This document shows positions 45,030-46,771 of a stretch of 46,771 bases of DNA, piece after piece; positions within the stretch are counted from its first letter, which is position 1, and every line of letters begins with the position of its first letter. Below the pieces are notes generated by a model. It did not search any database. It had not been told where the DNA came from and saw only the letters and a list, made by a program, of their open reading frames with translations. The DNA is from Methanosarcina spelaei (lineage in GTDB: Archaea > Halobacteriota > Methanosarcinia > Methanosarcinales > Methanosarcinaceae). The position numbers were made by a program, and so were the translations under genes. The stretch spans positions 1-46,771 of the forward strand of contig NZ_LMVP01000079.1 of assembly GCF_002287235.1 (NCBI RefSeq). The letters are read 5' to 3'.

Positions 45030-45386
45030 TTACATGTTACTAACTTCTTCTATAACTTTTTCTGCACATATGAGAGAATTGTTAACATGTCCCTTCTTTA
45101 CTTCAATGTGTAAAAAATAATCAGCGGTAGTTCTGTTTTGTCTTAATTTATATAACATATTACGTACTAAAACATTGATCCCTGCCATGTAGTTAATTAC
45201 TTCTTTATGCGCCTTCCCACTAGGACTTAAAGTATAATTTTTGGATTCCAAGTATGTTCTAGAAACTAAAAACGCCGAATAATAAGCTCTACTAACAGAT
45301 GTTCTATATTTAGATTCATCATGATAACTGCTATCATCTACCAATTGACGAGATAAATTTAAAAAATTGCATGGATCAAAAGGCAT
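45030..45386 (-). CDS. HEPN domain protein (UPF0332-like)
   Basis: A 118-residue helical protein of the HEPN superfamily, many of which are RNases in toxin-antitoxin or defence systems. Typical segments: FDPCNFLNLSRQLVDDSSYH, then YRTSVSRAYYSAFLVSRTYL, and LYKLRQNRTTADYFLHIEV, in which RxxxxD(Y) is the HEPN-like signature. I use the ATG at 45386; an upstream in-frame ATG at 45404 overlaps the previous gene. The stop of that gene is one base away (TAAAATG), so translation is coupled. It is the last gene of a three-gene operon. The catalytic RX4-6H motif is not fully clear, so enzymatic activity is uncertain. Confidence 0.75.
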   Translation of the reverse strand: MPFDPCNFLNLSRQLVDDSSYHDESKYRTSVSRAYYSAFLVSRTYLESKNYTLSPSGKAHKEVINYMAGINVLVRNMLYKLRQNRTTADYFLHIEVKKGHVNNSLICAEKVIEEVSNM

Positions 45387-45387
45387 T

Positions 45388-45975
45388 TTAATCAACAAAA
45401 CCATCTATTTTTTCTGGGTCTTCCAAGAGAATTATTGGGTTTCCATATTTCTCAAGGATGTCTTCATCCCGAACCTCGGTTGAATCTATCCTTTCCTTTA
45501 CACTTTCACCAATCTTTCTCCATAAATCAAAATATTTATCATAATTAATAATCGTTAAGGGTAATTTTATAGAGATTACAAACTCTTCCCAGTCTGGGTA
45601 CTCTTTGTCTTTAATGAGACAAGCGTTTATTTTAATATTGTCAATTTTCCCAAATTTTTCTAATTGAGAAAAAATTTCTGACAAAATTTCGTCTAATAAA
45701 ATATCAAAAGATTCGTTATCTAATTGGCTTATCTTTGAGTCAAAAATAATATTATTAAGTATAGAGTTATCGTAATATTCATTAGCCGTTGAACTTTCAT
45801 ATTCTTCTATCCAAGCAAGATAGGGTTTAGACATTGTTTTAATCATTTTGTTTGAATAAATGTTAATTACATTGTCCACTGTTTGTATAGCAGTAAGGAA
45901 TACGGAATTTATCTGACTTGAATTAATCAACTCCACTCCAGAACTATTAAACTCTATGCAAGTAATGAAATCCAC
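45388..45975 (-). CDS. Unrecognised 195-residue protein, middle gene of the HEPN operon
   Basis: Begins at GTG (MDFITCIEFNSSGVELINSS), two codons after the stop of the upstream gene; AAGGA is very close to the GTG. No family is recognised. The N-terminal ~80 residues mix strands and helices, the middle (SFDILLDEILSEIFSQLEKF) is a helix, and the region INACLIKDKEYPDWEEFVISIKLP looks like an alpha/beta half. The C-terminus is acidic (DEDILEKYGNPIILLEDPEKI). No membrane segment or signal peptide. Strong AT bias in codons. By position it could be an antitoxin or a partner of the HEPN protein, which is inference only. Confidence 0.65.
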   Translation of the reverse strand: MDFITCIEFNSSGVELINSSQINSVFLTAIQTVDNVINIYSNKMIKTMSKPYLAWIEEYESSTANEYYDNSILNNIIFDSKISQLDNESFDILLDEILSEIFSQLEKFGKIDNIKINACLIKDKEYPDWEEFVISIKLPLTIINYDKYFDLWRKIGESVKERIDSTEVRDEDILEKYGNPIILLEDPEKIDGFVD

Positions 45976-45980
45976 CGTCC

Positions 45981-46385
45981 TTACCGAGATTTTAATTTAT
46001 GTTTTATTAAAGGCTGGGCTTGTACCACATATATAGGTATTTTTTTTGAATCAAATTCGCCTGTTCTAATAACCTGTGAAATGAAGGGTTTTATCATCAA
46101 AGTGACATCTTTTTCTAAGTTGTACTCGTTCCAGTCTTCGTCAGAACTTGTTACTTCTACATATTCATCCTTACCTAATGATGTACTCCCAATCATATCA
46201 TCGGTAGGCGTTACTCCTACGACATTAGTCACCTGAAAACCCAATGATGTATTTCCTCGTGAATCCTGTCCCTCTTTAATGACCTTCACTAAGACTATTT
46301 TTAATTTAAGAGTTGCACCGTCAGACAACTTGTAAAAATTCCATTTTTCTTTCACTTCATCAAATTTGATTTCTTTTGGATTCAC
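45981..46385 (-). CDS. Unrecognised 134-residue beta-rich protein, first gene of the HEPN operon
   Basis: The frame opens at TTG 46397, but GGTGAT (46391-46396) lies five bases before a GTG at 46385 and could serve as its Shine-Dalgarno, so I take the GTG. The start reads MNPKEIKFDEVKEKWNFYKL. The rest alternates hydrophobic residues as in a beta-barrel (TLKLKIVLVKVIKEG, TLMIKPFISQVIRTG, IPIYVVQAQPLI). No family recognised. It is closely followed by the 195-residue gene with a 5-base gap, so all three form one transcript. An upstream AT-rich region (46398-46568) should hold the promoter. Confidence 0.6.
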   Translation of the reverse strand: MNPKEIKFDEVKEKWNFYKLSDGATLKLKIVLVKVIKEGQDSRGNTSLGFQVTNVVGVTPTDDMIGSTSLGKDEYVEVTSSDEDWNEYNLEKDVTLMIKPFISQVIRTGEFDSKKIPIYVVQAQPLIKHKLKSR

Positions 46386-46568
46386 CGAAATCACCAATAA
46401 ATGTAGATAACATAATTAGGTCCAATAGATAAAAAAACATACGGTATTCAAAAACATATTTTAAATTATAGTCTTAGAGTATTTAAGAATAACTTTTTTA
46501 ATTGAAATTGTATGATAGGATCTCAAATTAGCTTTTAAAATCTCTAATCTAATTTGATATCCACTTCT

Positions 46569-46771
46569 TTAAAAGTATCTCCCAAATGAATTTTTGCTTT
46601 CAACTTTATTTTGCAATTCTGTCAACACCATCAGTTGATATGCTATGAAACTCAATAGAGAGTAGAGTTTTCTACTCTGATTTCTTACTCTTCTAATATC
46701 GAATTTTACTGTACCCTTAATATGTCCATGTATCTTTTCACATTCAGCTCTCTTTTTATACTGATCATCAA
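46569..46771 (-). CDS. Transposase, C-terminal fragment (truncated by window edge)
   Basis: On the minus strand a frame is open from the window end to the stop at 46569-46571. It reads DDQYKKRAECEKIHGHIKG, then VKFDIRRVRNQSRKLYSLLS and FIAYQLMVLTELQNKVES. This is the C-terminal end of a DDE-type transposase of the kind common in Methanosarcina insertion sequences. The Glu of RAECEK may be the last catalytic residue. The family (IS4, IS5 or IS1182 group) cannot be fixed from 67 residues. It lies upstream of the HEPN operon on the same strand, so read-through is possible. Confidence 0.7.
   Translation of the reverse strand, partial: DDQYKKRAECEKIHGHIKGTVKFDIRRVRNQSRKLYSLLSFIAYQLMVLTELQNKVESKNSFGRYF

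Follow-up and report, generated by a model that had tools for sequence, protein, structure and literature searches.

Does a HEPN gene preceded by two genes of unrecognized families mark a new toxin-antitoxin or defence module, as a preliminary description of this locus proposed, and what might the two companions do? The locus lies near one end of a 46,771-nucleotide stretch of Methanosarcina spelaei DNA (contig NZ_LMVP01000079.1), which is referred to in full as the window. Reading of its open reading frames places the three genes in tandem on the minus strand: g1 (45981-46397) encodes 138 residues from a TTG or 134 from a later GTG, g2 (45388-45975) encodes 195 residues from a GTG, and g3, the HEPN gene (45030-45386), encodes 118 residues from an ATG, with an alternative ATG at 45404 giving a longer form that overlaps g2. 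Re-reading the frames returned the same spacing as reported earlier, 5 bases between g1 and g2 (45976-45980) and 1 base between g2 and g3 (45387), and the trio is AT-rich as described, with a G+C content of 31.4% against 41.0% for the window. The neighbouring insertion sequence also has its counterpart: the right flank, outside the module, is a multicopy element (about 46517-46771) with copies at 75-92% identity elsewhere in the same genome and in other Methanosarcina, fitting an insertion-sequence-like element, and the contig ends inside it.

The second gene and the HEPN gene recur as a pair

The g2 protein consists of a variable N-terminal part and a conserved C-terminal domain (about residues 77-190), named DPE in this analysis, and g2/DPE is a family that has no Pfam or NCBIfam entry. 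A first-pass genome scan using window g2 alone found nothing. Among 60 relatives searched, g2 was present in two other genomes, in both of which a HEPN gene follows 12 bases downstream, and g2 profiles found further loci in the phylum and class, with HEPN directly downstream wherever the locus is intact. Two loci depart from this arrangement, which almost all archaeal g2 loci show: in G394 the copy is decayed, with a truncated g2, a stop-containing g1 remnant and a HEPN gene reduced to its final residues, and in G468 the g2 match is weak and partial. Searches of plasmids and of viral contigs gave no match to g2.

The preliminary description had staked its reading on an unknown gene being conserved with HEPN, and had proposed looking for the gene order in other genomes with profile methods. 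For g2 both came out positively. In a search with DPE alone, covering 194 cyanobacterial-phylum and 201 Chloroflexota-phylum genomes, HEPN lies directly downstream in 20 of 21 loci from these two phyla, seeds being left out of the 21 (19 loci were called with HEPN, L147 was added on reading, and L142 has none). From the other direction, a profile of g2-associated HEPNs (A6) identified 80 relatives in public genomes of Lokiarchaeota, WOR-3, Cyanobacteria, Planctomycetes, Chloroflexota and others, nearly all with an upstream open reading frame that overlaps or lies a few bases away (mostly -25 to +12 bases, the commonest spacing being -4). The 78 such upstream frames comprise 55 g2/DPE, nine MNT and 14 that are neither, some of which resemble more distant relatives by eye; the proportion of 55 in 78 is biased by the seeding of that scan with g2-associated HEPNs, while the 20 of 21 is free of it. 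Since the g2-HEPN order recurs in so many genomes, the arrangement is far from chance, and by its position g2 occupies the place held elsewhere by MNT.

Whether g2 and the DPE proteins are one family was assessed in several ways. Profile-profile comparison (hhalign) aligned them over 68 columns with a probability of 84.7 and an E-value of 6.7e-6. A leave-one-out test recovered all 46 rows of the alignment, window g2 at E 9.4e-9 with the help of the other g2 rows; a profile of DPE rows only reached window g2 at just E 0.017. When a g2-only profile was run against 4146 open reading frames, the first matches beyond g2 itself were DPE frames upstream of HEPN, at weak E-values of 0.0076 upward. Homology of g2 and DPE is nonetheless likely because the ranking, the common position and the consistent alignment point the same way together. 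Weak matches of the g2 profile in 410-residue Methanosarcina proteins were judged to be chance.

The first gene is exchangeable

Window g1 contains two copies of a beta-rich domain, WNEY, that arose by internal duplication: its halves align with a score of 57, against 24.2 +/- 4.7 for shuffled sequences, and none of 2000 shuffles scored as high. A homolog of window g1 occupies the same slot in a Desulfobacterota locus (L064, E 1.3e-5) and is the sole match among the 4146 frames. Many archaea also carry the WNEY domain as a gene of its own, away from any HEPN, so the g1 domain need not be a dedicated sensor. As in window g1, it occurs twice in one frame in the f9-family genomes (G113 C1, 478573-478983; G118 C3, 57535-57948; G147 C1, 59062-59475).

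Elsewhere the slot is filled by other families, namely TIGR04255 (16 rows, NCBIfam confirming the three that were scanned), HNPSI (seven rows), DUF3467-like proteins (seven rows, weak Pfam matches), YEPYHIG (three rows) and a cyanobacterial family (three rows), beside the two rows of the WNEY family; DUF2299 appears in G535 (E 1.1e-23), and TIR, SIR2-TPR and other genes occur singly. In several g2/DPE-HEPN loci, no g1 is clearly recognizable. The comparison of loci indicates that g2-HEPN is the core of the module and that g1 is exchangeable. On a HEPN tree built from few columns and with many open forks, MNT-paired and DPE-paired HEPNs separate in one change (branch support 99%), and the g1 classes need 13 changes. 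The closest relative of the window HEPN, from a Methanosarcina sp. and 51% identical, has a different g1, so that the triggers of the core could be compared by a natural experiment within a single genus.

The TIR and SIR2-TPR genes bring up a different division of labour, a multi-subunit defence complex with g1 as the effector or recognizer (a role that would be clear for TIR and SIR2) and g2-HEPN as an adaptor or accessory core and not a toxin-antitoxin pair. The defence neighbours of some copies (see below) speak for it as well. However, for most g1 occupants (TIGR04255, DUF3467, HNPSI and WNEY) the libraries searched revealed no enzyme domain, and several of the g2/DPE-HEPN pairs lack a clear g1; we regard such a complex as quite unlikely and favour a toxin-antitoxin-like reading with g1 in a controlling role.

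Among open-licence PMC papers, none mentions TIGR04255 and none mentions HEPN with DUF3467 or DUF2299, a weak absence given the restriction to that literature. One TIGR04255 gene is the first of an operon that also encodes a 79-residue protein and a PIN-domain protein (L166, 1492-2917; Pfam PIN, E 6.8e-11), and TIGR04255 may therefore serve several toxin-antitoxin-like modules. Three cyanobacterial loci (L156, L157 and L158) have in common the order TIGR04255, a protein of 224-229 residues (weakly matching HTH_3 in L156) and a larger uncharacterized protein.

The HEPN protein retains a putative alternative active site

The g3 protein matches Pfam PF05168 (E 1.3e-5; 25.7 bits against a curated cut-off of 22), and profile A6 matches AF0298 (PDB 2hsb) at E 5e-9. 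It carries an E-x3-R motif (ESKYR), SRAYY, a second His (AHKEV) and R-x2-A-D-Y, the last as R-T-T-A-D-Y where class I of type VII would have RX4HXY. In the available text of PMC3710099, the AF0298-like HEPN-T branch is described as keeping the motif Arg and missing the motif His; a second conserved His lies between helix 2 and helix 3, and an alternative active site that includes it was proposed. According to the same text, many HEPN families have an Ex3[KR] motif. The window protein likewise keeps the motif Arg, is missing the motif His and has the second His upstream, and by these residues it is a member of this known branch.

These features extend well beyond the window. The canonical Rx4-6H is absent from 80 of the 80 HEPNs aligned, all of which retain R-x2-A-D-Y and the second His. 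An alignment of the window protein with 55 other g2/DPE-paired HEPNs gave the motif Arg and the second His in 56 of 56, the motif Asp and Tyr in 55, and for Ex3R the Glu in 50 and the Arg in all 56. The MNT-paired HEPNs also keep the second His and the R..DY, and their Ex3R Arg is present in one of nine and missing in eight. An RNase site is plausible in the g2/DPE-paired proteins because they keep Ex3R as well, and catalysis by the window HEPN is not assured because the canonical motif is missing; for a branch of this kind, the RNase claim therefore depends on the alternative His/Arg/Glu set. A plausible RNase site, required by the earlier reading, is thus offered by a set of conserved alternative residues and not by the textbook motif.

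Two recent HEPN entries in the PDB, 9xbd and 9xbc, are matched by profile A6 and are close to the window subfamily; they differ in the Tyr of R-x3-D-Y, which is Phe in one of them, as if this residue had been tested by others. The window HEPN further matches phrog_5176 (E 1.8e-17), whose function is unassigned in PHROGs. In two viral contigs (L019, 4198-5384; L020, 4221-5384) a HEPN relative stands directly after a gene for 259-267 residues of another family.

The predicted strand order of g2 is unlike that expected of MNT

No above-chance match to g1 or g2 was found in Pfam, NCBIfam, PHROGs or PADLOC, and in a PDB sequence search neither g2/DPE nor the one TIGR04255 protein queried had a significant relative. 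The earlier statement that neither neighbour shows MNT motifs holds, as neither has a Pfam match or similarity to the MNT rows, and the MNT domain (GSx10DxD) that marks the HEPN neighbour in type VII is found in neither g1 nor g2.

Structure prediction, proposed earlier for both companions, succeeded for one of them. The single-sequence AF2 model of g1 is unusable (pLDDT 34.7), and the C-terminal 119 residues of g2, modelled with 46 rows, gave a mean pLDDT of 84.0 and a pTM of 0.77. The predicted fold is alpha-beta-beta-alpha-alpha-beta (helix 12-31, strands 39-46 and 54-61, helices 69-88 and 95-101, strand 105-109 of the model), the order of elements of a type II KH domain. By VIA-align the model resembles ribosomal protein uS3 (Z 7.1-7.4) and the probable RNA-binding protein 3gku (Z 6.5), with cation-transporter C-terminal domains and OsmC scoring nearly as high; values below the caution line of 8 may reflect merely a common arrangement, and these neighbours are weak, with Z at most 7.4. 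The GxxG loop of KH was not seen in g2. Foldseek gave nothing at E <= 0.001 in the PDB or viral libraries, and the Pol-beta fold is absent among the matches listed. RNA binding by g2 is at most a possibility.

The position of g2 relative to HEPN, the same as that of MNT, invites the view of g2 as a diverged MNT, the module then being a HEPN-MNT pair with a worn-down transferase. This degenerate-MNT candidate was rejected on the absence of profile similarity to the MNT rows; GSx10DxD was not seen in g2, its predicted strand order is unlike that implied by the MNT motifs, and the HEPNs paired with MNT and with DPE form separate groups. We consider it highly improbable. The weak KH-like matches, together with the absence of Rx4-6H from all aligned HEPNs, could instead suggest a non-toxic nucleotide- or RNA-binding signalling module, with a HEPN that binds a ligand, g2/DPE and g1 in a regulatory complex and no RNase. 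Yet the invariance of the second His, the R-x2-ADY Arg and the Ex3R Arg in the 56 g2/DPE-paired proteins suggests an active site, and this alternative seems unlikely to us.

A patchily distributed module with a probable HEPN effector

The g2/DPE-HEPN pair is found across archaea, Lokiarchaeota included, and bacteria. Its occurrence is patchy, since just two of 31 Methanosarcina genomes have g2, and this patchiness together with the swapped partners resembles conflict systems, a further point against a signalling role. Some copies adjoin type I restriction-modification genes, Cas3 or a candidate defence gene, as does the decayed copy (L009, 44-1905) beside an ATPase-like gene that corresponds to the PADLOC candidate PDC-S01 (E 1.5e-120); many others sit among ordinary genes, outside defence islands.

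We consider it on balance probable that the locus is a self-contained, tripartite toxin-antitoxin-like module of the abortive-infection type, with HEPN as effector, g2 as restraint and g1 as exchangeable control. HEPN would be the toxic component, most likely a ribonuclease with an alternative site composed of the second His, Ex3R and the R-x2-A-D-Y Arg. The g2 DPE protein, in place of an MNT antitoxin, would most likely neutralize HEPN by binding it directly and not by nucleotide transfer, as no nucleotidyltransferase motif is seen in it. The timing of HEPN release would be set by the product of the first gene, acting as a sensor or a chaperone-like subunit, and the module as a whole would presumably act against viruses. 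Of the toxin-antitoxin or defence module first proposed, the part that stands is a companion conserved with HEPN in the place of MNT; the single fixed trio does not, as g1 is exchanged.

More tentatively, the locus could represent a widespread, unrecognized tripartite class in which at least seven g1 families are swapped over a g2/DPE-HEPN core and respond to different triggers. If so, TIGR04255, DUF3467 and DUF2299 would gain a function as sensor subunits. Should the toxin-antitoxin-like reading be right, these three families of unknown function and the unnamed HNPSI and DPE families would have a common role, open to testing, in the service of a HEPN effector, and HEPN proteins of a branch that lacks the textbook active site would be seen to pair with something besides MNT.

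Comparison with known systems

In layout only, the module recalls tripartite toxin-antitoxin-chaperone (TAC) systems, which also have three genes, a core pair with a third, potentially controlling subunit. The libraries searched, including Pfam for the g1 proteins scanned, gave none of the g1 occupants a match to SecB, the kind of third gene that marks TAC; for window g1, the fold comparison is limited by the low confidence of its single-sequence model noted above.

The AF0298-like HEPN-T proteins (PF05168; 2hsb) share the retained Arg, the missing motif His and the second conserved His. The authors of PMC3710099 liken AbiV to them, and the PF05168 table entries there list MNT fusions and clustering with restriction-modification operons; in contrast, a g2/DPE partner or an exchangeable first gene was not found in the available text.

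HEPN-MNT modules (HepT-MntA, type VII) likewise place a short HEPN gene immediately after a short partner gene, often with a 4-base overlap, and MNT-paired relatives appeared in the same HEPN search. They differ from the window type, in which the partner has neither MNT motif nor profile similarity, Rx4HxY is missing from the HEPN protein and there is usually a variable third gene. The AF0298-like HEPN-T branch and the HEPN-MNT type of module are already known, and what appears new is that the unnamed g2/DPE family stands where MNT would be and that the first gene can be exchanged.
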